From a virus, in the IMG/VR virus record IMGVR_UViG_3300001523_000016, positions 1 through 22,787 of that record: 22,787 nt of DNA; one strand, given 5' to 3'. Both the position numbers and the translations under genes were made by a program. Positions 1-18,449 of the stretch are shown here, one piece after another (the stretch's first letter is position 1; every line of letters starts with the position of its first letter). The notes under the pieces were generated by a model, which made no database searches, was not told where the DNA came from, and saw nothing but the letters and a program-made list of their open reading frames with translations.

Positions 1-48
1 ACGCTTCAACTGTCGAATTTCCTTTATTTTCAGCAAGAATTGGATGTA

Positions 49-76
49 TTTAAATAACTTGACGCGACTATTTAAA
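49..76 (+). promoter_or_regulatory. Inverted repeat around -35, possible operator
   Basis: TTTAAATA (49-56) and its reverse complement TATTTAAA (69-76) are separated by 12 bases and flank the -35 hexamer. The same arms with the same spacing occur at 17720-17747. The right arm is degenerate in the 4249 promoter. It could be an operator for a dimeric regulator or only an AT-rich upstream element. Confidence 0.4.
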
Positions 77-87
77 ACCCATACTAT
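59..87 (+). promoter_or_regulatory. Promoter, cassette copy 1
   Basis: The -35 box is TTGACG (59-64), followed by a 17-base spacer and the -10 box TACTAT (82-87). The conserved TTATCAG lies just downstream, where transcription should begin. The same architecture with exactly 17 bases of spacing occurs at 4249 and 17730, so chance is unlikely. It should drive the operon starting at 126. Confidence 0.8.
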
Positions 88-125
88 TTAATTATCAGAG
101 CAAGAAAAAAACTAAGGAGTACCAA

Positions 126-353
126 ATGAATACAGAAACGAAAAATTCACACCAAACCCGCACCAATGAACTAGTAGATGCAATCGTTACAGAATTAAAC
201 CTAGAAAGTGACTTGCACATAGAGGCATGTCTACGCAAAGTGATAGAAGCAAAAAATACCCATGACAGCCTGCGCTCACTTGAGTACCTATTGCAAACAA
301 TTTTGCGCGGACAAGGCAGAGACTTCTATTACAGCACACGGGCAGGTTCATAA
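126..353 (+). CDS. Hypothetical protein, first gene of cassette 1
   Basis: 75 residues, family not recognised. The start is supported by AAGGAG at 114-119, six bases upstream, inside the repeated leader. The protein looks mostly helical and hydrophilic, with no signal peptide or membrane segment. Its stop overlaps the next ATG by one base (TAATG), so the two are probably translationally coupled. As the promoter-proximal gene of a strong-looking unit, it is likely well expressed early; a host-takeover role would be only a guess. Confidence 0.75.
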   Translation: MNTETKNSHQTRTNELVDAIVTELNLESDLHIEACLRKVIEAKNTHDSLRSLEYLLQTILRGQGRDFYYSTRAGS

Positions 354-649
354 TGGCAAGCAACATTATTAAAGACCTAGAGATCGACTTAGGCAGTTTG
401 AATGATCAAATTATTGAAGCGATAAATGACACTCTTGAAAATTTAGACTTGCAGGGTTTAGGCGATGACGGCAACACAGAATTTTCTGTCGAGAACGTCG
501 AGGTGCGATTAGTGGATGGTAAGTTTTTGGCAAACATTTATCTGCACCGTGAGTCTGGCAAGTTTATGAGCAACGGAGATTTAGAGGAAGCAGTCCTCTA
601 TCAGGTTAACCGAGAGAAAATTGCAGTCACAGTAGAAATAGGTGCATGA
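353..649 (+). CDS. Hypothetical protein, acidic N-terminus
   Basis: 98 residues, family not recognised. It starts at the ATG in a TAATG overlap with the previous stop and ends in an ATGA overlap with the next gene. The N-terminal half is acidic and helical (Asp/Glu/Leu-rich around residues 6-40); the C-terminal half alternates hydrophobic and polar residues in strand-like fashion. There is no cysteine, signal peptide or membrane segment. Coupling on both sides supports it as a real member of the first operon. Confidence 0.75.
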   Translation: MASNIIKDLEIDLGSLNDQIIEAINDTLENLDLQGLGDDGNTEFSVENVEVRLVDGKFLANIYLHRESGKFMSNGDLEEAVLYQVNREKIAVTVEIGA

Positions 650-849
650 TGAAAACTTACAATCTTACAGCATTAGGCAGGAACGAAATCAAGGGGCTAA
701 AACTTACGCAAGAACAGGTCGAAGCAATGATAGGCAATCAGGCGGTCGAAAGACTAGAGGAAGTAATGGCAAGCGGAAAAGTAAAAGTTTTAAAGGGTTT
801 AGATTCTTTGGAAAAAGACTCACTTCACAAATTCGTTGTCAAAATTTAA
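646..849 (+). CDS. Hypothetical small protein
   Basis: 67 residues starting at 646; the second ATG at 649 is equally possible. The start overlaps the preceding TGA as ATGA, so it is probably read by re-initiation. Lys/Glu-rich and probably helical (residues 9-60), with no recognised domain. A longer reading in another frame at 642-866 is rich in Arg, Ser and Gly and is a shadow. Confidence 0.7.
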   Translation: MMKTYNLTALGRNEIKGLKLTQEQVEAMIGNQAVERLEEVMASGKVKVLKGLDSLEKDSLHKFVVKI

Positions 850-4113: not shown

Positions 4114-4171
4114 ACACAACTGAATAAACAGATGACTTTGTGGGGAAGCGGGAAATCTGGCAAGAAAATTA

Positions 4172-4210
4172 GCGGGGTTAGTAGTTGAAAGACTATTAGC
4201 CTCGCTTTTT
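4172..4210 (+). terminator. Rho-independent terminator of operon 1
   Basis: GCGGGGTTAGTAG (4172-4184) pairs along all 13 bases, including G-T pairs, with CTATTAGCCTCGC (4193-4205) around an eight-base loop, followed by TTTTT (4206-4210) and CCTTTT. It ends the operon containing the Lsr2-like gene and abuts promoter copy 2. The 201-base gap 4114-4314 holds this terminator and the cassette below; I see no further gene in it. Confidence 0.9.
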
Positions 4211-4317
4211 CCTTTTGTTTATAGCAGGAAACGCCCTTATTTAAATACTTGACTCATTGTTTCAAATCAAATACTCTTTAATTATCAGAGTAAGAAAAAA
4301 ACAAGGAGAAAAAAATG
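4205..4317 (+). repeat. Terminator-tail/promoter/RBS cassette, copy 2
   Basis: Second copy of the repeated unit at 18-132 and 17686-17802. It starts with CTTTTTCCTTTT of the terminator tail, then TATAGCA, TTTAAATA, the promoter, TTATCAG, an A-run and AAGGAG (4303-4308), six bases before the ATG at 4315. After the RBS it diverges from the other copies (AAAAAAATGAAC instead of TACCAAATGAAT). Confidence 0.85.
4249..4277 (+). promoter_or_regulatory. Promoter, cassette copy 2
   Basis: -35 TTGACT (4249-4254), 17-base spacer, -10 TACTCT (4272-4277), then TTATCAG. TTTAAATA lies just upstream, but the right arm of the inverted repeat seen in the other copies is degenerate here (TGTTTCAA). It should drive the ArdC-N-like gene and followers. 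Confidence 0.8.
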
Positions 4318-4668
4318 AACAAGTCAAGCGAAGACCGCAAACTAAAGATAGCAAGTTTAAAGGAAGCAGCAATCTTAGTCAGCGAAAATGAAGTCGCTGC
4401 ATTTTTAGCCCGCACTGCAAAAAAATACTCACCATTAAATGTGCAAATGATTATAAGCCAAAATCCTGAAGCATCAGTAGTTGCAGGATACAACGCTTGG
4501 AAAGAAGCAGGACGAGTAGTTAGAAAAGGCGAGAAGGGCATCGCAATCTTCGCTCCAATTTCCAAGAAAAATAAAGAAACCGAAAAGAGCGACATCTACG
4601 GATTCCGCGCAGTTTATGTTTTCGACATTAAGCAGACTGATGAAGTCGCCACAGGGGTGGCGGCATAA
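4315..4668 (+). CDS. ArdC N-terminal-domain-like anti-restriction candidate
   Basis: 117 residues. The pattern YSPLNVQMIISQNP...VVAGYNAWKEAGRVVRKGEKGIAIFAP...VYVFDIKQT follows the N-terminal domain of the anti-restriction protein ArdC, which binds single-stranded DNA in plasmid-encoded homologues. The C-terminal metallopeptidase domain of full ArdC is missing: the protein ends ten residues after the DIKQT motif. As the first gene behind promoter copy 2, it is placed for early, strong expression, which would suit protection of incoming DNA. That role is inferred from family and position only. The stop overlaps the next ATG (TAATG). Confidence 0.7.
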   Translation: MNKSSEDRKLKIASLKEAAILVSENEVAAFLARTAKKYSPLNVQMIISQNPEASVVAGYNAWKEAGRVVRKGEKGIAIFAPISKKNKETEKSDIYGFRAVYVFDIKQTDEVATGVAA

Positions 4669-4859
4669 TGATTTACTACTCAACAAGCGAAGTAGTTTTA
4701 CCAACACTACCCAACGGTAGAAACACAAAATGTTTTTACTGCACGTCAAAAGGTTCACACTTTATGGAAACCTACGATGCACCACCAGTCGTTTACACAT
4801 GTGGCGAATGTTGCGGGGGCTGTCTATGGGATGAAGACTGCGATTACGCACCCGAATAA
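4668..4859 (+). CDS. Small cysteine-rich protein
   Basis: 63 residues, TAATG-coupled to the ArdC-N-like gene. It has CFYC (about residues 22-25) and a dense CGECCGGC cluster (about 45-52), plus one further Cys near the acidic end. The arrangement suggests a zinc-binding domain, possibly with two sites; the function is unknown. Being co-translated with an anti-restriction candidate suggests a related early role, without direct evidence. Confidence 0.65.
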   Translation: MIYYSTSEVVLPTLPNGRNTKCFYCTSKGSHFMETYDAPPVVYTCGECCGGCLWDEDCDYAPE

Positions 4860-4886
4860 ACCAACCAAAAAACTAAGGAGTATCTA

Positions 4887-5141
4887 ATGGGTGATTATGA
4901 CGAGAACGGTTACAACGGCTGGACAAATTACGAAACTTGGAACGTGGCACTGTGGCTTGATAACGATGAGAGGTCACAAAGGGCAGTAGTTCTGTTTATG
5001 GGTAAGCACGGCTCAAAGCCTAGCCCCTACAAAGTGTTCGCAAAAGAGCATCTAGTCGGTGCAACTGGCGACGGCGTGCTGTGGGATGACGCACTGCTCG
5101 ATCACAAAGAATTAGACGACATGATGAGGGAGCAAGGATGA
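4887..5141 (+). CDS. Conserved phage protein with WTNYETWNV motif
   Basis: 84 residues. The start has AAGGAG (4875-4880) six bases upstream in a leader resembling cassette copy 1 (AACTAAGGAGTA). The N-terminal NGWTNYETWNVALWLDND is a signature I associate with a widespread uncharacterised family in phages and plasmids. The rest is polar with an acidic C-terminus. Function unknown; cytoplasmic, no signal or membrane segment. The gene ends in an ATGA overlap with the next one. Confidence 0.75.
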   Translation: MGDYDENGYNGWTNYETWNVALWLDNDERSQRAVVLFMGKHGSKPSPYKVFAKEHLVGATGDGVLWDDALLDHKELDDMMREQG

Positions 5142-5437
5142 AAGAAAGAACAGAGGCACGAGAATCGGAATTTATTGCAGCAGTGATTGAGGTGGCAAAA
5201 GAAACTGAAATAAGCCCATCGCAAATAGAGATTAGACCCGCAGTTGTATTCATGTATCAGGGGGAAAGTTCTACCGCCGTTTACTACTATGGAGCAGTAG
5301 ACCAATTTAGGGTTAGTCAGTACTCGATTAGCGAAATTGAAACCTATTTTAATCCAGAATCGGGGGAGTTTGTGGACATAAAAAGTTTTGACAATCCGAC
5401 AGAGGCGATTCTGCATGCAATTGAGGTTGCGAGTTAG
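5138..5437 (+). CDS. Hypothetical protein
   Basis: 99 residues, ATGA-coupled to the previous gene. An acidic helical N-terminus (about 1-30) is followed by a strand-rich middle with AVYYYGAVDQF and a C-terminal helix. No recognised family and no cysteine. Its TAG overlaps the GTG of the next gene by one base. Confidence 0.65.
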   Translation: MKERTEARESEFIAAVIEVAKETEISPSQIEIRPAVVFMYQGESSTAVYYYGAVDQFRVSQYSISEIETYFNPESGEFVDIKSFDNPTEAILHAIEVAS

Positions 5438-5631
5438 TGGCATACGACATTATGGATAAGTACCCGCTAGAGCCGCAGGCGTGCCATGAGTGTGGGGCGG
5501 TCGCGGTGTTCATGGAGTACGGCAATCATTTAGGATACGCGCAAAATCAATTTTGGTGCTTGGAGTGTTTAACGGCAAAAAAATTCTTAGACGATCAGAA
5601 TTTGCTAGTATTGAGGAAGCAGGAGGGCTGA
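5437..5631 (+). CDS. Small zinc-ribbon protein
   Basis: 64 residues from a GTG overlapping the previous TAG (TAGTG). CHEC (about residues 16-19) and CLEC (about 41-44) form a typical two-knuckle zinc ribbon separated by aromatic strands. No further domain. It lies directly before the ParB-like gene and is probably co-translated with its neighbours. Function unknown. Confidence 0.65.
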   Translation: MAYDIMDKYPLEPQACHECGAVAVFMEYGNHLGYAQNQFWCLECLTAKKFLDDQNLLVLRKQEG

Positions 5632-5634
5632 CTC

Positions 5635-6243
5635 ATGAACGTAAAAGAAATCTCGCTAGATGATTTAATTGAATACCCTAACAACGCACGCAGAGGCAAC
5701 ATTAGTGTTCTAGTTGATTCGCTAAAGGTTAATGGGCAGTACCGCCCTATCGTGGTGCAAAAGTCCACTAGTTATGTATTGGCGGGCAACCACCTTTTAC
5801 GGGCAGCCAGAATTCTGGGGTGGGACACGTTAGATGCAGTGGTGGTTGATGTCGACGAGCAGGCGGGCTTAAAAATAGTTCTAGCGGACAACCGATCGGC
5901 AGACTTGGGTGATTACAACGAGCAACTGCTTTCTGGTTTATTGGAGATGCTGGAAAATTTCGATGGCACGGGATACACCGAGGCGGACATTTTAGATCTA
6001 GAAAACGCGATAAACCCCGAGCCACTAGAAGAGCGGGCAGAGGTTGAATTTTCGTTAGGGATGAGAGAGTCAAATAACTACCTAGTACTCGTTTTTGACA
6101 ATGAGTTAGACTGGCAAGCGGCTATTACTACCTTTGATTTAAAGACCGTAAAGGCGTGGGATAGCCGTAAGGGATTTTCGAGAATGGGGGTAGGCAGGGT
6201 TATAGCGGGGGCGGAATACGTCAGGAAATTAAACGGGGATTAA
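5635..6243 (+). CDS. ParB/Srx-like nuclease-domain protein
   Basis: 202 residues, with AGGAGG eight bases before the ATG. Residues 1-90 match the ParB N-terminal domain: EISLDDLIEYPNNARRGN, then LKVNGQYRPIVV, and YVLAGNHLLRAARILGWD, equivalent to the ParB G-x-H-R-x-x-A box, followed by VLADNRSADLGDYN. There is no helix-turn-helix partitioning domain, so plasmid-style segregation is unlikely. Phage ParB-like proteins are commonly linked to DNA modification or act as nucleases or CTPases; here a DNA glycosyltransferase candidate follows. The C-terminal half (about 130-202) is not recognised. Confidence 0.75.
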   Translation: MNVKEISLDDLIEYPNNARRGNISVLVDSLKVNGQYRPIVVQKSTSYVLAGNHLLRAARILGWDTLDAVVVDVDEQAGLKIVLADNRSADLGDYNEQLLSGLLEMLENFDGTGYTEADILDLENAINPEPLEERAEVEFSLGMRESNNYLVLVFDNELDWQAAITTFDLKTVKAWDSRKGFSRMGVGRVIAGAEYVRKLNGD

Positions 6244-6321
6244 CTACCCTTACTCTTCGCTTACTGGTGATTTAAATCTAAAAACTACCTTCACTACCCG
6301 CCTACTTTAAGGAAAAGAAGC

Positions 6322-7056
6322 ATGCTAATAGTTAGCCCATCGTATAAGCGCGCAAATGATGTAAAGATTAAGACGTGGCTGCCAGATGTGACGCTTGCTG
6401 TGCATGAATTTGAAGTAGCCGAATACAAAAAAACGTACGGAGATAACATACTCGTACTACCTGACGAAACCCGCGGAAACATGGCAAAGGTTCGCCAAGC
6501 AATTCTAGACTCTGTGCCCTCTGGTGAGTGGGTGTGCATGATGGATGACGACATACAAGAAGTTGGATACTTCGGCAAATCGATTGGGTTAGGTAATCAC
6601 GAAACGTACGACACGGAACAATTCATGGAATTCATGGATAAGGGCACAATGATGGCGGAAGAGGTAGGCACTACTTTGTGGGGCATAAACGTTTCCTACG
6701 ACCCGCGCTTCTATCGGGAATACACGCCGCTATCTTTCTCTTCGCCTGTGTTGGGGACATTCTGCGTGCAGAAGAAAGTAAAAGGGATTCAGTACGATGC
6801 AAGACTTGGTTTAAAAGAAGATTATGACATTTTCTTACAGCATCTTCATCGCAACCATAAGGTTTTAAGGTTTAACTCTCATTACTACATAGCAGGACAC
6901 CTGACGGTGCAGGGTGGGTGCGGGGCGTATCGGGTGATGGAAGAAGAAGAAAAGCAGATGGGGATTCTGCAAAAGAAGTGGGGCAAAAGGGTGGTAAGGT
7001 CGAACTTACCTAAATCAACAAACCCGCGAATTAAATCCCCCGTCGCTGGTGTTTGA
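6322..7056 (+). CDS. TAGT-like DNA glycosyltransferase
   Basis: 244 residues, with AAGGA eight bases before the ATG. The N-terminus IVSPSYKRA and the metal-binding VCMMDDDIQEVGYFG (about 71-85) are those of a GT-A glycosyltransferase with a DxD motif. The overall pattern (VHEFEVAEYKKTYG, later FCVQKKVKG, LKEDYDIFL) resembles the TET-associated glycosyltransferases of actinophages, which add sugars to oxidised 5-methylcytosine in DNA. No TET/JBP dioxygenase or cytosine methylase is visible in this window, so the acceptor could differ. Its ParB-like neighbour fits a DNA-modification module that would block host nucleases. The 78-base gap before it (6244-6321) is pyrimidine-rich and shows no clear signal. 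Confidence 0.7.
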   Translation: MLIVSPSYKRANDVKIKTWLPDVTLAVHEFEVAEYKKTYGDNILVLPDETRGNMAKVRQAILDSVPSGEWVCMMDDDIQEVGYFGKSIGLGNHETYDTEQFMEFMDKGTMMAEEVGTTLWGINVSYDPRFYREYTPLSFSSPVLGTFCVQKKVKGIQYDARLGLKEDYDIFLQHLHRNHKVLRFNSHYYIAGHLTVQGGCGAYRVMEEEEKQMGILQKKWGKRVVRSNLPKSTNPRIKSPVAGV

Positions 7057-7063
7057 TTAAAGG

Positions 7064-7069
7064 TACAAT
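7064..7069 (+). promoter_or_regulatory. Candidate leaderless -10 (TACAAT) before small terminase
   Basis: TACAAT lies exactly six bases before the ATG at 7076, which has no Shine-Dalgarno site. The context GTACAAT-A-AAA-C-C-ATG is nearly the same as at 18476-18490. It probably starts the packaging and head operon. No convincing -35 is present, which is common for actinobacterial leaderless promoters. Confidence 0.55.
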
Positions 7070-7075
7070 AAAACC

Positions 7076-7552
7076 ATGAGCCTAAAAAATGGTGGCAAGA
7101 AGAATGACCCTGAAGTTTTCGCAAGAGAGCGGAAAGTCTTAGAAATGAGATTAGCGGGGGTTACATTCGACATAATCGGCAAGACTGTTGGGTATGCGAG
7201 CGCGGGGGCGACGTATAACGCTTACAAGCGGGCGTTGATTAGGACGTTACAAGAGCCAGCAGACGAGATCAGGGACACGGAACTGGCAAGGCTTGATCGG
7301 TTAATGCAGGGTATTTGGACGCAGGCTTTACGGGGTGAAATTTCATCAGTACAAACGGCTCTTAAGATCATGGATAGGCGGGCAAGATTGCTAGGATTAG
7401 ATGCGCCTACAAAACAGCAGGTAGATGTTGTCACATACGAGGGGGGCAGTGAACTTGATAGAGAAATCCAACGCCTTGCCGAGTTACTCGCACAGGGTGG
7501 CAGCAAGCCGAATAATGTGGACGCACAACCAAGCGAGACCCTCGCAGATTGA
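7076..7552 (+). CDS. terS: Terminase small subunit
   Basis: 158 residues. The N-terminal half is a helix-turn-helix-like region (FARERKVLEMRLAGVTFDIIGKTVGYASAGATYNAYKRAL, about 15-58); the middle is a helical oligomerisation segment ending MDRRARLLGLDAPTKQQVDV, a phrase typical of actinophage small terminases. It would bind pac or cos DNA and hand it to the large subunit. Position directly before terL supports this. The gene overlaps the large subunit by 38 bases if the latter starts at 7515. No SD, and a probable leaderless start. Confidence 0.75.
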   Translation: MSLKNGGKKNDPEVFARERKVLEMRLAGVTFDIIGKTVGYASAGATYNAYKRALIRTLQEPADEIRDTELARLDRLMQGIWTQALRGEISSVQTALKIMDRRARLLGLDAPTKQQVDVVTYEGGSELDREIQRLAELLAQGGSKPNNVDAQPSETLAD

Positions 7553-8843
7553 GCCTGAAGGCGACTGGAAGACTTGGCTGATTCTTAGCGGTCGAGGGTG
7601 GGGGAAAACTCGGACAGGTGCGGAGTGGTTGGTATGGCAAGCGATTTACATGCCCAAAACTCGGTGGGCGATTCTTGCGCCTACATTCGGATCGGCTAGA
7701 GATACTTGTATCGAGGGAGAATCAGGGGTACTCGGGATTTTGCAGAGGTATGGGGCGTTAAAGAAGGACAACGGGTATAACCGAAGCAACGGGGAATTAT
7801 GGCTCGCTAATGGTTCGAGGATTAAAACATTTTCGGCGGGTGACCCCGAAAGACTCAGAGGACCACAGTTTCATGGCGCATGGGTGGATGAATTAGCAGC
7901 CTTCCAGTATCCCGAGTCGTGGGATCAACTGCAATTCGGGTTGAGACTGGGAGCAGATCCTAGGGTGGTGGTTACGACAACACCTAAGCCTAAACCGCTT
8001 ATCCGCGCTCTGGTGGATCGGAAGGATGGAACGGTTAGCATAACCCGCGGATCAACTTTTGAGAATAGAGAGAACCTAGCGCAATCGGCTTTGGTGGAAT
8101 TACAGACACGGTACGCAAACACGAGGCTTGGAAGGCAGGAACTTTACGGGGAGATACTCGAAGACGTAGAGGGCGCGCTGTGGTCGATGGATTCGATAGA
8201 TAGTAATCGGGTGGAAGTCGCGCCAAGAGACATACAAAGGATGGTGGTTGCAATCGACCCTGCGGTTACCAATACCGATGATTCTGATGAGACTGGCATT
8301 GTGGTGGCGGGCAAAAACAATCAAGGCGAGGCGTTTATAATCGCGGACTATTCGTGCAAAGCGTCGCCCCTTGAGTGGGCAAAAAGAGCGGTCGAGGCGT
8401 ACAAAGTACATGAAGCAGATGTAATTGTGGTTGAGGTGAATAATGGGGGGGACATGATTGCCGCGGTCATTAGGCAGATCGACCCTGTGATTCCTATTAA
8501 GTCGGTAAGAGCGACGAGAGGGAAGGCGATCAGGGCAGAACCTATCGCGGCTTATTACGAGCAGAACCGTGTCCACCATGTGGGGGTGTTTGAGAAGTTA
8601 GAAAACCAGATGGTGACATGGACACCTGACGAGCCAAAATCGCCAGATCGGCTTGATGCTTTAGTCTGGGCATTGACTGACCTTTTAGAGGGTTCATCAT
8701 TGACAGGGTATCTTGCTAACCTTGCTGTTTGGTGCGATACTTGTAACCTGCCTATGCCTAAAACTTTAAAAGTTTGCAGCAACTGTGCATCTCCGCTATC
8801 CGAGAGCGGGGACATAGAGGAGAGGCACGTGCTAGGAGCATAG
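7515..8843 (+). CDS. terL: Terminase large subunit
   Basis: 442 residues from ATG 7515. A TTG at 7425 would add 30 residues inside terS and looks unlikely. Walker A is SGRGWGKT (about 25-32), Walker B GAWVDEL (about 121-127). The RNase H-like nuclease half has AIDPAVTNTDD with its Asp (about 248), IVVEVNNGGD (about 304-313) and SPDRLDALVWAL (about 376-387). It pumps DNA into the procapsid and cuts it. An oddity is the tail CDTC...CSNC (about 407-424), a zinc ribbon not normally found at the end of TerL. The portal ATG follows the stop directly. Confidence 0.92.
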   Translation: MWTHNQARPSQIEPEGDWKTWLILSGRGWGKTRTGAEWLVWQAIYMPKTRWAILAPTFGSARDTCIEGESGVLGILQRYGALKKDNGYNRSNGELWLANGSRIKTFSAGDPERLRGPQFHGAWVDELAAFQYPESWDQLQFGLRLGADPRVVVTTTPKPKPLIRALVDRKDGTVSITRGSTFENRENLAQSALVELQTRYANTRLGRQELYGEILEDVEGALWSMDSIDSNRVEVAPRDIQRMVVAIDPAVTNTDDSDETGIVVAGKNNQGEAFIIADYSCKASPLEWAKRAVEAYKVHEADVIVVEVNNGGDMIAAVIRQIDPVIPIKSVRATRGKAIRAEPIAAYYEQNRVHHVGVFEKLENQMVTWTPDEPKSPDRLDALVWALTDLLEGSSLTGYLANLAVWCDTCNLPMPKTLKVCSNCASPLSESGDIEERHVLGA

Positions 8844-10982
8844 ATGGCAATCTGGGATAACTTACTTAGGCGCAACGTAGAAAAAGCAGCACCAATGTTG
8901 CCAGCGGGCGCACAGGTTTCACAGTTTACTCAACAGGAATTGTCAGGGGTCGGATACCAGCCTTATAGCATCGGAATCGCTACGGCATTACCACAGCCGA
9001 CTTATTTAGCAGGCATACCATTTGGACCTTCCACCCCGTTAATTCCTGCTGCAATAAATCCAGTGGGGGCAGACGGAAGACCAGAGCCGAGACGGTGGGA
9101 GTACCCCGTCGCTTGGAACATCTTTGTATCAGAACAACGGGTTATTCCGTGGAACGTCCTAAGAACCGCTGGGGATCAAATAGACATCTTGAGGCGATGC
9201 GTTGAAGTTTTAAAGTCACGACTTAACGGGATGAACTGGGACATAACTTTTTCGGATTCTGCTAGTGAATTGATTGCTGCCGAATCTGGTGGGGATCATG
9301 TCAGGGCGATGCAAAAAGCGAGAGATGAGTACACGGAAGAGATTGCAAGACTTAGGGCGTTTTGGCAGACTCCTGATCGAATCAACGGCTTAGGATTTAA
9401 AGACTGGCTAGGGATGGCTCTCGAAGAGGTGCTAGTGCTGGATGCGTTGGCGGTATACCCGCACCCCGATTTAAAAGGCGACCTACATTCTTTCGAGATT
9501 CTAGACGGTTCGACGATTAAGCCGTTGCTTGACGATCGAGGAATGAGACCGCAACACCCATTTCCTGCTTACCAACAAATCCTTTATGGTTTTCCTCGTG
9601 GCGAATTCATCGCATCTTCCGATGATCCGACGCAAGACGGGAATTTCTCCGCAGACGAGATGATCTACTTAGTACGTAATAGAAGAACATTCACGCCTTA
9701 TGGTTACAGCCCTGTTGAGCGCGCATTACCGCTGGCAGACCTTTATCTAAAAAGGCAACAATGGTTGAGGGCTGAATTTACTGACGGGGTTATGCCTGAC
9801 TTAATGTTTGAGTCAGACCCGCAGTTTGGTGGCACTCCTGAATTGTTGAGAGCGTGGGAAAACATACTTAATGACGATCTAGCGGGACAAACAGAGCAGC
9901 GGAAACGCGCACGGATTATCCCGAGCGGATTAAAGGCGATAGATAACACGGGACATTCGGAAAAATTTAACGATACTTTCGACAACCATTTGATTAAGGG
10001 AATCACTGGGCACTTTGGGATTCTACCTTCAGAAATCGGCTATGCAGACGGTGGAACATTGGGGGGCGCGGGTCAACAAAATGGAGAGGCAAAATCGGGT
10101 GACGTGATCGGGGTCGAGCCTTTAATGCTTTGGCTTGCTGATCAACTTTCCGACCTGTCCTATAAATTCTTAGGGATGCCTAGAGAGTTAGTTTTTAGAT
10201 TTAACGGTGGACGGGAAACGGACACGGAGACAGATGCAAGGCGGGTAGACATTGAGACGAGGGGCGCAAGAAAGTCGTTAAATGAGGCGAGAGCAGAGAT
10301 GGGTCTGCCACTTATTGATTCACCTGCTGCCGATGCGTTAATAATGAATACAAGCGCAGGTTTATACATGGTTACTAGTGGGGGCTTGGTATCTGTTGAT
10401 CAACCTTCGCCAGCACCTGAGGGTCAAGTCATTGTGCCAACAAGCAGTCAAGAAGAAGAGGCTTTAGATAGCCCAGCAGTGTCGCCGTTAGATGATGAAG
10501 AATCACTAGAGGAGAGCGTCAAAGCGGAAAAACTAGCCGTAGGCAATTTTGTTTCGTGGGGTTCAAGTGGTGGGAAGGCGAGAGGAAAGATTACTCGGAT
10601 CGCCAAGTCGGGAAGCATAAAAGTACCTGACTCTAGTTTTTCGATTAATGCGACGGAAGAAGACCCCGCTGCTTTAATTAGGGTTTACCAGCGAGACGGG
10701 GATTACTGGAAGGAAAGCAAAACAATAGTAGGTCACAAACTCGCAACCTTGACAAGGATCGAAGAGTTACGGGCGAAGCCTAAAGATGCAGAAAAAATCG
10801 ACCAAGAATCGGCTCAAGAAGTTAAAGCATTTTTAAAGTGGGCAAAGAAGGGGAATACCGAAAGAGATTTTGAATTTCTAGCGGTGGACGCTTTTATGGC
10901 AAAGGCTTTGAACCAGTCAGTAAGAGAGCAAGACTCTGAATTAACTAAAGCACTTGCAGATGGTGTTTTAAAAAAAGCGTAA
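8844..10982 (+). CDS. Portal protein with C-terminal Tudor-like domain
   Basis: 712 residues, ATG immediately after the terL stop. Portal features: PWNVLRTAGDQIDILRRCVEVLKSRLNGMNWDI (about 102-134), FEILDGSTIKPLLDDRG (217-233), EMIYLVRNRRTFTPYGYSPVE (272-292), GILPSEIGYADGGTLGG (392-408). It forms the dodecameric DNA gate that docks terminase and tail. Residues about 564-641 (VGNFVSWGSSGGKARGKI to HKLATLTRI) resemble the DUF2945/Hva1 Tudor-like fold that actinophages attach to various structural proteins. The end sits on a TTTAAAAAAA run next to a hairpin, so a share of ribosomes may continue into MuF in the -1 frame. Confidence 0.9.
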   Translation: MAIWDNLLRRNVEKAAPMLPAGAQVSQFTQQELSGVGYQPYSIGIATALPQPTYLAGIPFGPSTPLIPAAINPVGADGRPEPRRWEYPVAWNIFVSEQRVIPWNVLRTAGDQIDILRRCVEVLKSRLNGMNWDITFSDSASELIAAESGGDHVRAMQKARDEYTEEIARLRAFWQTPDRINGLGFKDWLGMALEEVLVLDALAVYPHPDLKGDLHSFEILDGSTIKPLLDDRGMRPQHPFPAYQQILYGFPRGEFIASSDDPTQDGNFSADEMIYLVRNRRTFTPYGYSPVERALPLADLYLKRQQWLRAEFTDGVMPDLMFESDPQFGGTPELLRAWENILNDDLAGQTEQRKRARIIPSGLKAIDNTGHSEKFNDTFDNHLIKGITGHFGILPSEIGYADGGTLGGAGQQNGEAKSGDVIGVEPLMLWLADQLSDLSYKFLGMPRELVFRFNGGRETDTETDARRVDIETRGARKSLNEARAEMGLPLIDSPAADALIMNTSAGLYMVTSGGLVSVDQPSPAPEGQVIVPTSSQEEEALDSPAVSPLDDEESLEESVKAEKLAVGNFVSWGSSGGKARGKITRIAKSGSIKVPDSSFSINATEEDPAALIRVYQRDGDYWKESKTIVGHKLATLTRIEELRAKPKDAEKIDQESAQEVKAFLKWAKKGNTERDFEFLAVDAFMAKALNQSVREQDSELTKALADGVLKKA

Positions 10983-10999
10983 GCCGTAGAGATGCGGCT
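10967..10999 (+). promoter_or_regulatory. Candidate -1 programmed frameshift signal, portal to MuF
   Basis: In portal frame the bases read T-TTA-AAA-AAA-GCG-TAA. Both TTTAAAA (10967-10973) and A-AAA-AAA (10970-10976) fit X-XXY-YYZ. Five bases downstream, A82-A88 (AGCCGTA) pairs with T93-T99 (TGCGGCT) around a GAGA tetraloop. The -1 frame is open from 10949 to the MuF stop at 12547, so the slip must fall in a 34-base interval, and these signals are inside it. Confidence 0.6.
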
Positions 11000-11044
11000 A
11001 AAGAAAACCTCTTCATAAGAAACTCCTTAATCATCCAATCGGCG

Positions 11045-12547
11045 ATGAGGAAGCAAGCAGATGCGAAGAAGATAACCAGCAAATGGTATGACCACAATGC
11101 GATTAAATCTCCCGCGACTCAATCGGCAAAAGACTGGGTAAGAATTAACCTATCTCTAGACGATTCAGGAATGACAAAAGCGATGGAGAGCGTCTACTCT
11201 TCAGGGTGGGCTTTCGGGGGTGCAGATGCTGCTGATAGGCTTGGGTCTAGCATTGGTTTTGACTGGGATAATTGGAAGGCGGGAAATGAAGCCGCGGCTG
11301 CGTTAGTGGATTACCCGAGCGGACTACAAAACCTTTTAAATAAATCGGGGACAGTAATCCGAGGGCTGGACAATACAACGGTTGATAGAATCGGCACGGC
11401 TTTGGCGTTGGGGCTATCACAAGGGTTATCGCCAGCGGATACAGCAAAGGCTGTGGATTACGTTATCGACAATCCGCTTAGATCGATGGTTATCGCTCGA
11501 ACAGAGACTGCACGCGCTTTAATAGATTCCAACGTGGCAAGTTATCGCGAAGCAAAAATACAGAGACTAGAGTGGCTTGTCGGAGACCCTTGCCCTATCT
11601 GTGCGCCGAACGCGGGGGTGATTGTGCCTATTGGTGAGGAATTTCCAAGTGGGAACGTTTACCCGCCTGCTCACCCGAATTGTGTTTGCGATGTTGCGCC
11701 AGTTTTGGATGACGATTTACAAGGGGCTGTAAGTCAGGGGTCTATTAATCAAGAGCCAGAAATTGCAAGAGTAGAAAATCAAGACCGCTCGAAGATGGGT
11801 GACATCCGAATACCAATTGAGGACTTAAGGGGCGGGAGCGCAAGTAGATTCTTGAGACCAGACGGGACGTTTACCCCCGACCGTCAGGCTCTGCATGACA
11901 GAATTGTTTTTAATGCGGTAGATGGGATTCAACCATCAGCAAATCCAACGTACACAATGCTCGGGGGCGGACCTGCTTCGGGTAAAACAACTGTTATTAA
12001 TTCAGGGGTTGCGGAAGTTATAGATGCTACAAAGGCTGTACACATTAACGCTGACGACATAAAGAGCCTTTTGCCAGAAACGCAGGCAATGTTGGATGCA
12101 AAAGATACTGCTTGGGCTGCTTACACGCACGAAGAATCCTCTTATCTGGCAAAGCGGATTCAAAATGCCGCAATGCAAAGGTCACAGCACATTGTCTTGG
12201 ATGGTACAGGAGATAACGGGGTGCAAAGCATTGTTGGGAAACTCAAGGCTGCGAGCGATGCGGGCTATGAGGTAAACGGGGTTTATGTTACTGTGACAAC
12301 TGAACAGGCACTAGCAAGATCCGCGGCACGGGGAGTTAGAACTGGAAGAGTTGTGCCAGATACGGTAGTCAGGAACATACACGCTGCGGTGTCTGACGTG
12401 TTCCCCCAAATTTACGGGAGATTCGACTCTTTCTATGTAGTGGACAACTCGATTAACCCGAGAATAATCGCTACTGGCGGCAAAGGTAAGATAGAAATAA
12501 CAGACAAGAAGGCTTACAATGCCTTCCTGAGAAAGGCTAAAAAATAG
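11045..12547 (+). CDS. MuF head-morphogenesis protein fused to zeta-toxin kinase
   Basis: 500 residues from the first ATG, but that ATG lacks an SD site. The frame is open back past the portal end and encodes a plausible SRRDAAKENLFIRNSLI segment, so it may be made only as a -1 portal fusion of about 1234 residues. Residues 1-225 are SPP1-gp7/MuF-like: the ARTETARALIDSNVASY helix (151-167), then the WLVGDPCPICAPNAG...PPAHPNCVCDVAP cysteine motif (178-219). Residues about 265-480 are zeta-toxin-like: Walker A GGGPASGKTT (307-316), HINADDIK (333-340), VLDGTGD (394-400), RGVRTGRVVP (429-438). Zeta kinases phosphorylate UDP-N-acetylglucosamine or related nucleotide sugars. The toxin could be packaged and injected. 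Confidence 0.88.
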   Translation: MRKQADAKKITSKWYDHNAIKSPATQSAKDWVRINLSLDDSGMTKAMESVYSSGWAFGGADAADRLGSSIGFDWDNWKAGNEAAAALVDYPSGLQNLLNKSGTVIRGLDNTTVDRIGTALALGLSQGLSPADTAKAVDYVIDNPLRSMVIARTETARALIDSNVASYREAKIQRLEWLVGDPCPICAPNAGVIVPIGEEFPSGNVYPPAHPNCVCDVAPVLDDDLQGAVSQGSINQEPEIARVENQDRSKMGDIRIPIEDLRGGSASRFLRPDGTFTPDRQALHDRIVFNAVDGIQPSANPTYTMLGGGPASGKTTVINSGVAEVIDATKAVHINADDIKSLLPETQAMLDAKDTAWAAYTHEESSYLAKRIQNAAMQRSQHIVLDGTGDNGVQSIVGKLKAASDAGYEVNGVYVTVTTEQALARSAARGVRTGRVVPDTVVRNIHAAVSDVFPQIYGRFDSFYVVDNSINPRIIATGGKGKIEITDKKAYNAFLRKAKK

Positions 12548-12756
12548 TGCAAACATACGTTGAATCCGATTTAATAAATAAAATTTTAGTCGCTATCGGT
12601 CTGGGCAAATCTAAGGAAAAATTTAAAGGCAACTTAACAGAATTCGAATCTGCTTTCTGGGGTCAAGTGGAAAAAGAAATCGAAGAGATTAGGGCAGCGG
12701 GTATGATCCCAATGATTCCGACGGAAACACCAAGCCCTACCCCGTTGATTAATTAA
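12547..12756 (+). CDS. Small protein coupled to MuF-zeta; possible immunity protein
   Basis: 69 residues starting at a GTG that overlaps the MuF-zeta stop (TAGTG), with GAAAGG ten bases upstream. Residues 5-50 are helical (NKILVAIGLGKSKEKF, then FWGQVEKEIEEIRAAG); the end is Pro/Thr-rich. Polymorphic-toxin genes are usually followed by an immunity gene, and the epsilon antitoxin of zeta is a small helical protein, so this is the positional candidate. No epsilon sequence motif is recognisable. It may instead be a conserved small head-gene-cluster protein. Confidence 0.6.
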   Translation: MQTYVESDLINKILVAIGLGKSKEKFKGNLTEFESAFWGQVEKEIEEIRAAGMIPMIPTETPSPTPLIN

Positions 12757-12831
12757 AAACATACGGATCTGCCCGATAGACAAACGCCCTAAGTGTGCGC
12801 CATAATTAATTTATTACTTTAGGAGTTTGCT

Positions 12832-14100
12832 TTGGCTAAAAATACTCAAGATACTACCGCTTATGCTCAAATAGTTAAATTTGAAGAGCAGGAAGATGGA
12901 ACAGTGCTGGCGTATGGCAAGGCAACCGACGATACCTTAGATTCCGACGCGCAAGTTTGTGACCCGATCTGGTTAGAAAAAGCAATGCCCGAGTGGTTTA
13001 AATTTGGAAACATTCGCGAACAGCACACAAACATTGCAGCGGGAGTTGCGACGGAGTACGAATCAAAAGGCAACGAGCATTTCATTACAGCGCACATAGT
13101 AGATCCCAACTCTGCAAAGAAAGTTAAAGCGGGGGTACTTAAGGGGTTCTCTATTGGGATACGAGGCGCAAGGGTTATTAAAGACGCAAACGCAGCGGGC
13201 GGCAGAATCATTGACGGGCAAATTGTTGAGGTCTCAATTGTTGATCGACCTGCAAACCCATCATGCACTTTAATTATGGCAAAGACTGTCGGCGCAGATG
13301 TTGTGCAGGTGGAAGAGTATACGGAGACGGAAGGCAAGGCGATGACAGCCACCGAAATTATTGAAATGGCTAAAGGCTTAACCGCCGATACAGTCAAATT
13401 CAACGAAGCAGGATACAACGATGCACGGCGAGCCCTTGCGACATTAATCATGTCAGAGGCGGGGGAGATGGCAGAGGGATCTGATGAGAGTTACTCGATT
13501 CAATGCCTGCTTGCTGCTGTGTGCGCACTCATGGAGTGGGTCGATAGTGAAGAGAAAGAAGGAGAAACCGCCATGGAGACTGAAGGGATGTACATGGACA
13601 TGGACATGGAGATGGCAATCAAGCCAGAAGAATCCATAAGTGAAGAACTTGAAGAGGTAGCGGAGAAGTCTTTAGAGACGACTGAGAAATGCCTAGAGTG
13701 CGGTTGCCACGAGCCAGCCAACGATCATGGCAGAGAAGATGTGTCTGTTGCAGAGATCGTAGTAGCAGAAGAAAAATCTGCCACCCTTGATAATTCAGAA
13801 TTACGCGAACTTATCGCGGAAATTGTGAAGTCGCTAAACACCAACCCGACGGTTGAACAGGATCTATTGACAAAGGCTGCCGAAGCCGAACGCATTGAGG
13901 CGTTGGAATCGGAACTTGCACAGGTCAAGGCTCTTGCTGCACCTAGTGGACCAAAAAGATTCGCTCAGGTGAATAGCAAACCAATTAATGAGAAAGTGAC
14001 CAAGGCGGCTTATTTCCGCGCTAAGGCTGCGGCAACATTAGATAAGGCACTCGCTGACGGATACCGCCAGATGGCTGCCGAATTAGAAAAATCCATTTAA
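12832..14100 (+). CDS. Prohead protease fused to scaffold-like domain
   Basis: 422 residues from TTG 12832, chosen because AGGAG (12821-12825) is six bases upstream. Residues 10-152 are an XkdF/HK97-type maturation protease: GKATDDTLDSDAQVCD, then REQHT with putative catalytic His65, GVLKGFSIGIRGARV with putative Ser107, and VEVSIVDRPANPSC. After 170 the protein becomes acidic, with a Met-Asp repeat (MYMDMDMEM, 253-261), a CLECGCH...H possible metal site (287-299), and a coiled-coil Ala/Glu segment (320-422), as expected of an internal scaffold. It would organise the procapsid and then cleave head proteins, including itself. It sits directly before the capsid gene. Confidence 0.85.
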   Translation: MAKNTQDTTAYAQIVKFEEQEDGTVLAYGKATDDTLDSDAQVCDPIWLEKAMPEWFKFGNIREQHTNIAAGVATEYESKGNEHFITAHIVDPNSAKKVKAGVLKGFSIGIRGARVIKDANAAGGRIIDGQIVEVSIVDRPANPSCTLIMAKTVGADVVQVEEYTETEGKAMTATEIIEMAKGLTADTVKFNEAGYNDARRALATLIMSEAGEMAEGSDESYSIQCLLAAVCALMEWVDSEEKEGETAMETEGMYMDMDMEMAIKPEESISEELEEVAEKSLETTEKCLECGCHEPANDHGREDVSVAEIVVAEEKSATLDNSELRELIAEIVKSLNTNPTVEQDLLTKAAEAERIEALESELAQVKALAAPSGPKRFAQVNSKPINEKVTKAAYFRAKAAATLDKALADGYRQMAAELEKSI

Positions 14101-14131
14101 CCCAACTTAACTAGAAAGGTGGTTCTCAGAT

Positions 14132-15124
14132 ATGTCTGAAGCCCCAAAAGTTACCGATCTATACGGTGACTTATCTCCAAGGGATGCGGCTGCACGCCAC
14201 GAAGATTACATCGCTGCATTGACTAAGAGCAACTCAAGCCCTGTCGATGCATCATTCTTCGGCGGTTCACCAGTTGCTCCTGCTGCAATGACGGCATCCG
14301 CCGCAATGCAAGCAATCGTTAGCAATGAATCAATCGTTAAGGGTATGAGCCCTGATGCTCTTTCATCTCTAACAACCGCTCTTGAAGTACAGCGTGCTTC
14401 TGGTCAGGACATCGTCAAGGATCTTACCTTGACAAGCCCGATCAGCACGGGACTTGTAGCCTTCGATCTCGAAGCACCTGCAAAACTTCTAACCCCTCGT
14501 CCAACACCTTTGCGCAATAAAATTCCACGCAAAAAAGGAGTCGGAACATCTCACCGCATTAAAGTAATTAGCGGCTTTACTGGTACTGGCACAGGCGGAG
14601 TAGGCAATACATGGCCAGGAATTACCGACAGTACAACTACTTCATTCGGCTCTGTAAATTACTTGCGTGGACCAAAAATCTCATACGCAGGTTATGACAA
14701 GGCTGTTAATTACAAGCAGTTCTCTCTTTCTGACGCAGTACCGTTTTCTGCACAGTTCCAAGGACAGGGCTACCAAGACATCCGCCAGTTATCTCAGACA
14801 TCCGTGCTTTACGCATCCATGCTTATGGAAGAGCGCATGCTACTTATGTCTCGTGGAACTGATTCGGGTTTCCAAGGTGCGCTTGCCGCTCCTACATTCG
14901 CAGGAACATCACCAGTTGCAAGCGCAAGTCAAACCGCGCTTGCTGCTGCAACCTACTACGTAAATGTAACGGCTGATGCTGGTGCATTTGGTGAATCCAT
15001 CCTAGGAACGGAAGCATCGGTCGTAGTGGCTGCTGGAGACGTGCTTAGTATCGGATCTTATTGCTCCTGTGGTTGGTGCGCTTGGTTACAACGTTTATGT
15101 TGGAACAACTACTGGCGATGCTAA
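14132..15124 (+). CDS. Major capsid protein, N-terminal frame
   Basis: 330 residues as read, with GAAAGGTGG before the ATG. An N-terminal delta-like segment is followed by an HK97-type body (LTLTSPISTGLVAFDLEAPAKLLTPRPTPLRNKIPR, about 107-140) and YDKAVNYKQFSLSDAVPFSAQFQGQGYQDIRQLSQTSVLYASMLMEERMLLM (about 190-240). From about 255 an Ig/Fn3-like insertion begins (YYVNVTADAGAFGESILGTEASVVVAAGDV). The frame then runs into a cysteine/Trp-rich nonsense tail (YCSCGWCAWLQRLCW) and stops. The rest of the capsid protein continues in the +1 frame up to 15815; together they would give about 560 residues. The frame change is discussed in the findings. Confidence 0.85.
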   Translation: MSEAPKVTDLYGDLSPRDAAARHEDYIAALTKSNSSPVDASFFGGSPVAPAAMTASAAMQAIVSNESIVKGMSPDALSSLTTALEVQRASGQDIVKDLTLTSPISTGLVAFDLEAPAKLLTPRPTPLRNKIPRKKGVGTSHRIKVISGFTGTGTGGVGNTWPGITDSTTTSFGSVNYLRGPKISYAGYDKAVNYKQFSLSDAVPFSAQFQGQGYQDIRQLSQTSVLYASMLMEERMLLMSRGTDSGFQGALAAPTFAGTSPVASASQTALAAATYYVNVTADAGAFGESILGTEASVVVAAGDVLSIGSYCSCGWCAWLQRLCWNNYWRC

Positions 15125-15815
15125 CCTTAAGTACCAAGGTCGCTCAACTGGGCTAACCTTCGTTATTCAGGGTGCTGCATCTAACGTAACCACAGGCGAT
15201 AACGCCCCATTCTCAACAGGTGGTGCAGCCGCTACACGCGCAACTGCTGATACATCTGCACGAGCAACTGGCTACGATGGCATCCTGCCTACCGTGCTTG
15301 GCTCTGAGAGTGGATTCATTAATCGGATCAATTCGGTGTTTAGTACCAGCAATCCTGGCTCTGAATTCCAAAAGGTGTTCGCTGCACTTTACGAAAACGT
15401 AAAGGCTGACCCTGATGAGATTCTGCTTAATGGTGGAGACCGCAAGCAATTATCTGACGCAATCAAGTCGGGATCTGTCGCTAACTACCGTCTAAACATC
15501 TCACAAGATGAAATCGGTGGCATGACACTTGGCAACGTTGTAACAGGTCTGCAAAACGAAGTAACTGGCAAGGGAATTTCCCTAACCGTTCACCCGTGGT
15601 TACCACAGGGTGTTGCGCCAGTACTTTCGTACACATTGCCGATTCCTGATACAAACGTTTCTGATGTTTGGGCAGTATTCAATACGCAGGATTACATGGC
15701 TATTGAATGGCCAGTAACTCAATTCGCATACGAAACCAGCACATACTGGAACGGTACTTTCCAGTGCCAAGCACCAGCATGGAACGGTGTAGTGTCGGGA
15801 ATTGTTTCCGCGTAA
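15069..15815 (+). CDS. Major capsid protein, C-terminal part in +1 frame
   Basis: 248 residues if counted from GTG 15069, but this is not a likely start: no ribosome-binding site precedes it, and the frame is open back to 15027 with IAPVVGALGYNVYVG completing the Ig-like repeat of the upstream frame. Later residues are the HK97 P-domain and A-domain end: NSVFSTSNPGSEFQKVFAALYENVKADPDEILLNGG, NVVTGLQNEVTGKGISLTVHPWLPQG, and QDYMAIEWPVTQFAYETSTYWNG. It is therefore the second half of the capsid protein. Removing one base near 15058-15059 would fuse both halves perfectly (GSIAPVVGAL). Confidence 0.85.
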   Translation: MVGALGYNVYVGTTTGDANLKYQGRSTGLTFVIQGAASNVTTGDNAPFSTGGAAATRATADTSARATGYDGILPTVLGSESGFINRINSVFSTSNPGSEFQKVFAALYENVKADPDEILLNGGDRKQLSDAIKSGSVANYRLNISQDEIGGMTLGNVVTGLQNEVTGKGISLTVHPWLPQGVAPVLSYTLPIPDTNVSDVWAVFNTQDYMAIEWPVTQFAYETSTYWNGTFQCQAPAWNGVVSGIVSA

Positions 15816-15826
15816 CTAATAAGTCC

Positions 15827-15871
15827 GTGTGACCCTTGCCCACTAAACTAGGGTAGGGGTCACACCTCTTT
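15827..15871 (+). terminator. Terminator or attenuator after capsid gene
   Basis: GTGTGACCCTTGCCC (15827-15841) pairs with GGGTAGGGGTCACAC (15851-15865) around ACTAAACTA, a 15-base stem with one T-T mismatch and G-T pairs. Only CTCTTT follows, so the T-tract is weak. It may partly end transcription after the abundant capsid message, or protect its 3' end, while letting some polymerase through to the connector genes. Confidence 0.75.
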
Positions 15872-15885
15872 ATGGAAGGTAAAGA

Positions 15886-16173
15886 ATGGCTAAGTATTTT
15901 GCAAGCGATCGGCGAGCGGTAGAAGTAACGATTGAAGGCGCAAGAACTGGCTCGATGCGAACTCTCAAGGCGGACAGGAAGGGTTTCTATGAAGTCACAA
16001 ATAAGAGCGATGCAAAAGCACTTAAAGATTCGGGCTTCGTTGAGGCATCGCTTATGGGACCGAGTAGCGGAATCGGCGGCTATCTATGTTTTAAGTGCGG
16101 TTTCAATGGTTGGTTCAAGACTTGCGGAAAATGTGGAACTACCCAAGAAGGACCGCAAGATGCTGGTGCCTGA
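15886..16173 (+). CDS. Small head protein with zinc ribbon
   Basis: 95 residues, GGAAGG six bases before the ATG. The N-terminal half is strand-rich (VEVTIEGARTGSMRTLKADRKGFYEVTNKSDAKALKDSG), and the C-terminal half has CFKCGFNGWFKTCGKCG, a two-knuckle zinc ribbon with knuckles only about ten residues apart. Small proteins of this design follow the capsid gene in many actinophages. Its role, perhaps as a minor head or connector component, is not established. Confidence 0.7.
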   Translation: MAKYFASDRRAVEVTIEGARTGSMRTLKADRKGFYEVTNKSDAKALKDSGFVEASLMGPSSGIGGYLCFKCGFNGWFKTCGKCGTTQEGPQDAGA

Positions 16174-17634: not shown

Positions 17635-17640
17635 TCTGAT

Positions 17641-17691
17641 GGGGCTGCGGGATTCGGCAAGCCTTCCACTTAATCCCGTAGTCCTCTTTTT
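17641..17691 (+). terminator. Rho-independent terminator of head/neck operon
   Basis: GGGGCTGCGGGATT (17641-17654) pairs with AATCCCGTAGTCCT (17672-17685), including G-T pairs, around a 17-base loop, followed by C and TTTTT (17687-17691). It lies between the tail-terminator gene and promoter copy 3, and insulates the small-gene cassette from structural transcription. Confidence 0.88.
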
Positions 17692-17719
17692 CCTTTAGTT
17701 GTAGCATAAAATTAATTTG

Positions 17720-17747
17720 TTTAAATAACTTGACTTGGCTATTTAAA
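17720..17747 (+). promoter_or_regulatory. Inverted repeat around -35, second copy
   Basis: TTTAAATA (17720-17727) and TATTTAAA (17740-17747), 12 bases apart, flank the -35 box in the same geometry as 49-76. Possible operator; it may also be only AT-rich promoter DNA. Confidence 0.4.
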
Positions 17748-17758
17748 TCAAATACTCT
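17730..17758 (+). promoter_or_regulatory. Promoter, cassette copy 3
   Basis: -35 TTGACT (17730-17735), 17-base spacer, -10 TACTCT (17753-17758), then TTATCAG near the expected start of transcription. It drives the four small genes 17796-18449. Confidence 0.8.
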
Positions 17759-17795
17759 TTAGTTATCAGGTTAGAAAAAAACAAAGGAGTACCAA

Positions 17796-17993
17796 ATGAA
17801 TACAGCAATTAAAGTAAAATCAGGTCACTACAACTACCGCGGCATTTTAATCGTTCGCGGTGAAGTTAGCACTCACAAAGGGCTTGGATGGTATTACATG
17901 AATCCAAAGACTTACAAGACAACCTACGCATCAACCCTTAAAGATGCCGTGTACGCAGTAGATTACGCCTTCGAGTGCAAGGCAGGTGCATAA
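17796..17993 (+). CDS. Hypothetical protein, first gene of moron cassette
   Basis: 65 residues, basic and rich in Tyr (NYRGILIVRGEVSTHKGLGWYYMNPKTYKTTYA), compact alpha/beta look, no known motif. It starts MNT like the first gene of cassette 1 because the repeated leader extends over the start codon. The stop overlaps the next ATG (TAATG). The gene has its own promoter inside tail genes, so it is a likely moron. Confidence 0.7.
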   Translation: MNTAIKVKSGHYNYRGILIVRGEVSTHKGLGWYYMNPKTYKTTYASTLKDAVYAVDYAFECKAGA

Positions 17994-18205
17994 TGAATAC
18001 AACAACACTGAGAGACATCGAAGCACAATTTAACGCTTGGTTCGCAGTAACAGTAGAAGCAAAGTTTCAACTTCATGTCAGCGATTTCTTTATCGATTAT
18101 CTTGACGCGCTAGATAACGAAGAGGTTAATTATGAAGTGCCCTCTTTCTATACAATCAGCAACCGCCCCGAAATCTTTTACCCAAGTTTTAAGGTGACTT
18201 TCTAA
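17993..18205 (+). CDS. Hypothetical protein
   Basis: 70 residues from the ATG at 17993, TAATG-coupled on both sides; an upstream in-frame start at 17975 lies inside the preceding gene and is less likely. Acidic and aromatic (FIDYLDALDNEEVNYEVPSFY), with no recognised domain or membrane segment. Confidence 0.65.
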   Translation: MNTTTLRDIEAQFNAWFAVTVEAKFQLHVSDFFIDYLDALDNEEVNYEVPSFYTISNRPEIFYPSFKVTF

Positions 18206-18309
18206 TGAATACCAAGCAAATCTGCGTAGAGTGCCAGCGGGTGTTTGATTTGATGGATGAAAGAGACGCGGGAGAATGGTACTACGGGCACGATTGTGAG
18301 GTTGAATAA
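18205..18309 (+). CDS. Tiny CxxC protein
   Basis: 34 residues between TAATG overlaps. CVEC (about residues 7-10) and a late HDC suggest a small metal-binding site, three Cys and one His in all (C7, C10, H30, C32 approximately). Function unknown. Coupling to both neighbours supports translation. Confidence 0.55.
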   Translation: MNTKQICVECQRVFDLMDERDAGEWYYGHDCEVE

Positions 18310-18449
18310 TGAAACTGCTAGGGCATGATTTTGGAGATCAAGACATTTATGAAAAGCCAGCAAAGAACAAGAAACAGTCAATAGTTTGCAACTGTCAAGA
18401 TGGCAACAAGTGGAGATTTAAAATGGCTAGTAGCACACCTGAATCGTGA
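18309..18449 (+). CDS. Small hypothetical protein
   Basis: 46 residues, TAATG-coupled to the previous gene and last in the cassette. Lys-rich centre (KPAKNKKQ), then VCNC and a basic patch (NKWRFK). No recognised family. The 38 bases between its stop and the next ATG contain no hairpin but do contain the TACAAT box at 18476. Confidence 0.5.
   Translation: MKLLGHDFGDQDIYEKPAKNKKQSIVCNCQDGNKWRFKMASSTPES

Follow-up and report, generated by a model that had tools for sequence, protein, structure and literature searches.

Repeated promoter-like units as putative recombination sockets for small accessory genes in an uncultured phage and its relatives

The morons of lambdoid phages such as HK97 and HK022 are extra genes with a promoter of their own, located between tail genes that adjoin each other in related phages. 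T4-type phages carry PeSL cassettes (Arbiol 2010; Comeau 2014), which, as portrayed in the accounts consulted here, are composites of an early promoter and a stem-loop that are present in many copies per genome and lie in regions of small genes shuffled between related phages (PMC4503421, PMC3950731). A PeSL-like role in shuffling has been proposed for promoter/inverted-repeat motifs of the archaeal virus HGTV-1 (PMC3950731), and promoter activity has been shown for all tested intergenic repeats of halovirus HF2, which are conserved in place and orientation; in the portions of the latter account considered here, exchange of the genes behind the repeats is not described (PMC8707807). Furthermore, cluster K mycobacteriophages carry start-associated and extended start-associated sequences (SAS and ESAS), i.e., RBS-bearing repeats just 5′ of start codons, with varying genes behind them; some have an upstream inverted repeat, the consensus of which differs by subcluster; the SAS proper is a 13-bp sequence, GGGATAGGAGCCC, that is confined to the non-structural half and conserved by gene family (PMC3203893).

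The window analyzed here is the entire record IMGVR_UViG_3300001523_000016 (22,787 bases, linear) of an uncultured virus, and encodes GP88, HNH, SSB, ParB-N, glycosyltransferase, terminase, portal, capsid and HK97-gp10-like tail genes. Two related contigs of ~36 kb each, G003 and G007, end in identical stretches of 123 bases, so that the window probably represents part of a genome of about this length. All contigs compared are metagenomic; no near match to the window was found among 50,697 named phages, and a terminase search of bacterial genomes indicated no host.

Three direct copies of the unit are present in the window, all on the plus strand (Table 1). In a gapped self-BLAST, the copies are 80%, 78% and 74% identical pairwise over ~115–143 nt, with E-values of 1.3e-24, 2.7e-17 and 2e-16, and with values in this range (1e-16 to 1e-24) they are not a product of chance. 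Every copy consists of TTGAC(G/T), a 17-nt spacer, TACT(A/C)T, TTATCAG, an A-run and AAGGAG exactly six bases 5′ of an ATG; copies 1 and 3 have AGGAGTACCAAATGAATACA in common, and a run of small genes stands behind each of the three. On all these points, including the coordinates, the spacing, the stretch identical in copies 1 and 3 and the small genes behind each copy, the initial annotation is reproduced. The "TAGCA-like" element that it listed is how the window represents a 5′ box found in relatives as CCCTTNNNAATAAAGGG or as the reverse complement of that sequence. A consensus promoter scan found copy 1 at threshold and did not find copies 2 and 3; it returned fewer sites than in shuffled sequence, and the hexamers of the units are ordinary. 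The 13-bp SAS of cluster K is absent before the start codons, where the window units read TAAGGAGTACCAAATG, CAAGGAGAAAAAAATG and AAAGGAGTACCAAATG. Unlike SAS and ESAS, the units are ~100 bp long, contain a full promoter-like sequence and occur also inside the late region.

Table 1. Units, neighboring genes, joints and hairpins (window coordinates), and contigs bearing the near-palindrome
Feature	Position	Strand	Details
Unit 1 (locus A)	18..132	+	5′ box, AT tract, TTGACG (59–64), 17 nt, TACTAT (82–87), TTATCAGAG leader, A-run, AAGGAG (114–119), ATG 126
First gene behind unit 1	126..353	+	75 aa; ends in joint-like GGTTCATAATG (345–355)
Joint GGTGCATGATG	641..651	+	Between small genes of the unit-1 run
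Intrinsic terminator 5′ of unit 2	4171..4213	+	16-pair stem, T-run; hairpin 4171–4206, z −6.0
Unit 2 (locus B)	4205..4317	+	TTGACT (4249), 17 nt, TACTCT (to 4277), TTATCAGAG leader, A-run, AAGGAG (4303–4308), ATG 4315
First gene behind unit 2	4315..4668	+	117 aa; ends GGCGGCATAATG
Hairpin and T-run 5′ of unit 3	17641..17695	+	Hairpin 17641–17685, z −3.1
Unit 3 (locus C)	17686..17802	+	TTGACT (17730), 17 nt, TACTCT (to 17758), TTATCAG leader, A-run, AAGGAG (17784–17789), ATG 17796
First gene behind unit 3	17796..17993	+	65 aa; sibling contig L003 has an unrelated gene here
3′ joint GGTGCATAATG	17985..17995	+	SD-like sequence in last codons; stop-start overlap to next small gene
Other small genes of the unit-3 insert	17993..18449	+	Precede tail gene at 18488
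Bearers of near-palindrome CCTTNNNAATAAAGG			G006 (L088/L089), G007 (L090/L091), G028 (L142), G003 (L085)

When 2.9 million viral contigs were scanned for exact matches to the pattern of the window unit, L003 was the sole match, and unit searches among named phages gave chance matches only. Relatives that are 70% identical lack the exact unit sequence, so that profile and self-repeat searches were needed. With a profile built from 14 units, homologous units were identified in G003, G006, G007, G011, G028, L010 and L003; among the non-seed contigs, the matches were to G028 (best 2e-26), G011 (4e-22) and L010 (3e-9), and those in G003 were weak (0.009 to 0.1). Self-comparison showed that G005, G018 and G031 have multi-copy unit families of their own that are specific to the respective lineages. 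Related contigs contain the promoter-like unit, in a homologous or lineage-specific form, at 3–6 copies per genome. Unit 1 of the window is syntenic with the units at G006 10385, G007 22724, G028 18812, G011 8729 and G003 32302. In G018 (L096/L097) and G032 (L235/L236), small genes are preceded by units of another family, which have TTGAC-17-TAAACT and whose leader hairpin is longer (e.g., TACGAAG...CTTCGTA).

With some variations, the units of G006, G007, G011 and G028 are organized as a 5′ near-palindrome CCCTTNNNAATAAAGGG, often common to two divergent units, an A/T tract, TTGCAT-17-TATNNT, a short leader hairpin and AGAACAGAAGGGCAAGAAAATG. The stem of this hairpin covaries (92.4% of cells paired; covariation 0.853 vs. 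0.187 in shuffles, with 0 of 500 shuffles reaching the observed value and slid controls at ≤0.17), and its loop contains a conserved CAGAG or CAGGG. The window and L003 represent the divergent end of the family: TCAGAG or TCAGG is kept without a stem, the leaders of the window copies being unstructured when searched for a hairpin, and the palindrome of the window copies is degenerate. Compared with PeSL, the leader hairpin of the relatives has no T-run behind it, and the window leaders have no hairpin. The near-palindrome CCTTNNNAATAAAGG is found in units only (Table 1), is common to divergent unit pairs and looks like a putative regulator site.

All three window units stand at loci that are shared with relatives, as identified by anchors, and unrelated genes follow them. 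At locus A, located before the w1115/GP88 block, the first genes of the window, G003, G006, G007, G011 and G028 are unrelated; the same holds at locus B, before the terminase gene, for the window, G006, G007 and G003 (the latter read across the circle junction). The product of the window gene at locus B contains the N-terminal domain of the anti-restriction factor ArdC (PF08401, E 2e-11). Overall, the first genes behind the units are mutually unrelated except for true orthologues and two cross-locus cases, and the first gene behind unit 1 matches (39%, E 2e-10) the gene behind a G007 unit at a different locus (D, leftward). The expectation that the unit would persist in relatives with other genes behind it is borne out at loci A and B as well as at locus C (see below).

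The borders of the replacement are particularly clear at locus A of G007 and G028, where the two contigs show 89.5% identity as far as the start codon and 92% identity from the joint on: homology ends at the ATG and resumes at AAGG(T/C)TGGTGC(A/G)TAATG, and between these borders lie unrelated genes for 60 aa and 69 aa, with a third gene in G011. At locus E of G007 and G028, the units precede unchanged genes that are 98% identical. In reciprocal comparisons of G006, G007, G011 and G028, 25 of 28 unit starts whose upstream DNA aligned showed a loss of homology at the start codon, vs. 17 of 271 other gene starts; because the 28 comparisons come from four genomes counted both ways, they are not independent, and the figures convey an effect size, not a number of trials. 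The right-hand border of the locus-A swaps, GGTGC[A/G]TAATG, is located where the stop codon of one small gene overlaps the start codon of the next in the window, G003, G005, G006, G007, G011, G013 and G028; it occurs once in 20 other records, and the exchanged genes often end in it. The following gene has an SD-like AGGTG within this joint, the conservation of which could therefore reflect translational coupling. A shared 3′ joint is a further difference from PeSL.

Locus C lies between two tail genes. Twelve contigs, some of which are near-duplicates, have an empty site there (51–76 nt), and four have a filled one (window, 853 nt; G006, 710 nt; G028, 572 nt; G005, 1381 nt); each of the four has a unit, in accord with the proposed insertion of small genes. 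G028 has a unit, a gene and a terminator where the 92%-identical G007 has 63 nt, and G006 has a unit and a terminator as in G028 with a different gene between them; with regard to a transposon or integron cassette, no target duplication was seen when the empty locus of G007 was compared with the filled locus of G028. The window insert (853 nt vs. 51–76 nt in the 12 contigs) resembles a moron in its location between genes that are adjacent in relatives; it has a promoter-like unit of its own, and in G006 and G028 a terminator is present as well. Unlike in morons, each genome has a single, shared type of repeated unit, with exchange of the gene that follows. The mobile or recombinogenic cassette suggested initially is upheld in part: gene exchange and insertion at locus C are seen, but it is mostly the gene between the unit and the stop-start joint that is swapped, and not only the cassette as a whole. 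The additional suggestion that late transcription is left undisturbed gains no support from the window, in which no terminator is listed on the plus strand between 17993 and 18488, where the unit-3 genes give way to the next tail gene, a weak match to HK97 gp10; in G006 and G028, a terminator separates the insert from the tail gene.

As regards the terminator tract ascribed to every copy, a strong hairpin with a T-run is indeed present 5′ of copies 2 and 3, and copy 1 begins 17 nt from the contig end. Relatives without an insert at locus C also keep a hairpin there, with a different stem sequence. The hairpin lies just 3′ of the tail gene in the window, G003, G005, G006, G007, G013, G014 and G018, the stem varies, and in the insert-free loci no T-run follows it. 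The hairpin before unit 3 is ancestral and outside the mobile piece; accordingly, the exchangeable unit would begin at the T-rich box after the hairpin, and the "terminator-promoter-RBS cassette" should be read as a resident hairpin plus a unit. The loop of many of the tail-gene hairpins contains GCCTTCCAC. A candidate hairpin spanning the −10 of copy 2 was dropped because it would be 5′ of the transcript start, and the CCCTT...AAGGG box was rejected as an intrinsic terminator given that, in the units read, neither strand has a T-run after it.

A possible trace of recombination within the units is found in L003, which is 99.77% identical to window 4800–17799 (13 kb). The differences are sparse up to 17769, inside the unit-3 leader, where L003 switches to AGAGCAAGAAAAAAC, which is unit-1-like, and then to another gene. 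Such a switch is the trace to be expected from a crossover between unit copies; it could also be an assembly chimera through the repeat, since the contig ends ~210 nt after the switch. The window units are 77–81% alike among themselves, and their likeness to the syntenic units of relatives is 57–65%, a concerted pattern that homogenisation among the copies would produce. No recombinase signature or gene was detected among the part of the window proteins scanned, and either homologous recombination in the units or random recombination sifted by selection would explain the pattern.

We consider it probable that the units serve as early promoters, each with a leader and an RBS, and at the same time as recombination sockets for accessory genes. 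Under this hypothesis, the unit would be a host-type (sigma-70-like) early promoter with a 5′ leader and a ribosome-binding site, with several copies of it per genome, each placed before short accessory genes; given that the copies are alike within a genome and occupy the same positions in related phages, they would serve as common 5′ sockets. The gene behind the unit would be replaced, with its expression unharmed, by homologous recombination at two borders: the left one inside the unit, and the right one inside whichever conserved sequence comes next, often the GGTGC[A/G]TAATG joint or a terminator. What the comparisons show is the unit family, its conserved positions, the replacement of genes at borders formed by the start codon and the joint, the presence or absence of the insert at locus C, and the covarying leader hairpin of the relatives; transcription of the units, its early timing and the exchange by homologous recombination we infer. 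A more elaborate version, which we put forward only tentatively, is a two-ended gene-cassette system with one-for-one swaps between a lineage-specific 5′ unit and a 3′ joint (AAGG..GGTGC[A/G]TAATG), units homogenised by gene conversion and, in most members, a leader hairpin that a common phage regulator would read.

The principal alternative, to which we assign a minor share of the likelihood, is that the units are merely promoters and that genes come and go by illegitimate recombination, with selection keeping the working junctions, as in the classic accretion of morons. Selection alone would favor breakpoints at functional borders, and entire promoter-gene-terminator inserts such as those at locus C are what is seen for morons. 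However, the new genes stand behind the unit type of the resident genome and not behind a foreign promoter, related genes occur behind units at different loci, the L003 hybrid switches inside a unit, and the window copies resemble each other more than they resemble syntenic copies in other phages, all of which counts against this alternative.

It appears improbable that the units are primarily sites of a phage regulator that co-controls accessory operons, such that they resemble one another because they are regulated together, the turnover of genes being incidental. The near-palindrome CCCTTNNNAATAAAGGG 5′ of the promoter in relatives, which is common to divergent pairs and matched exactly in units only, and the leader hairpin with its covarying stem and conserved CAGAG/CAGGG loop are compatible with such a role, but the window copies, with a degenerate palindrome and no hairpin, still front swapped genes; besides, regulation of this kind is compatible with the socket hypothesis. 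Apparent swaps caused by assembly, i.e., by repeats joining different genomes, would be in keeping with the metagenomic origin of all contigs and with the proximity of the L003 switch to the contig end. Nevertheless, the swaps in G006, G007, G011 and G028 lie inside the contigs, are flanked by conserved sequence at either end and recur at several loci, and the empty locus C agrees in 12 contigs, so that this explanation is highly unlikely.

The best reading of the recombination-socket hypothesis in the light of known systems is that the units would work like T4 PeSL cassettes, as far as these are portrayed in the cited accounts, and share with them an association with gene shuffling between related phages; the repeated units here are promoter-like, with a leader hairpin in relatives and none in the window. 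The two would be unrelated by sequence and phage type: no sequence relation was found, the unit sequence is lineage-specific, and the phage is not T4-type, having an HK97-gp10-like tail gene and complete relatives of ~36 kb; the best portal and terminase matches of the window are to non-T4 phages. With HGTV-1 and HF2, so far as those accounts go, the likeness lies in the repeated intergenic promoter units, and the difference in their archaeal TATA/BRE promoters. The PeSL idea would thereby be extended to a distant group of small phages, with the addition of sharp breakpoints at both gene ends, and the question of mosaicism, short shared linkers as opposed to random joining sifted by selection, becomes testable. 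The family suggests how phages could trade accessory genes with gene control intact. In addition, the unit provides a search handle, the gene directly behind it being a candidate host-takeover or counter-defence gene, and the ArdC-type anti-restriction domain behind unit 2 is a recognisable accessory case.

Several other features of the window were observed. The TET-associated glycosyltransferase (PF20691) encoded at 6322–7056 suggests hypermodified DNA in this phage. The C-terminal part of the portal-like protein encoded at 8844–10982 matches capsid-annotated or hypothetical proteins of other phages, which suggests a fusion. Four extra bases compared with L003 (15054–15058, near GATC) split the major-capsid-like frame of the window into 14132–15124 and 15069–15815, either through a sequencing error or through a real frameshift; in L003 and G003, this frame is continuous over ~560 codons.
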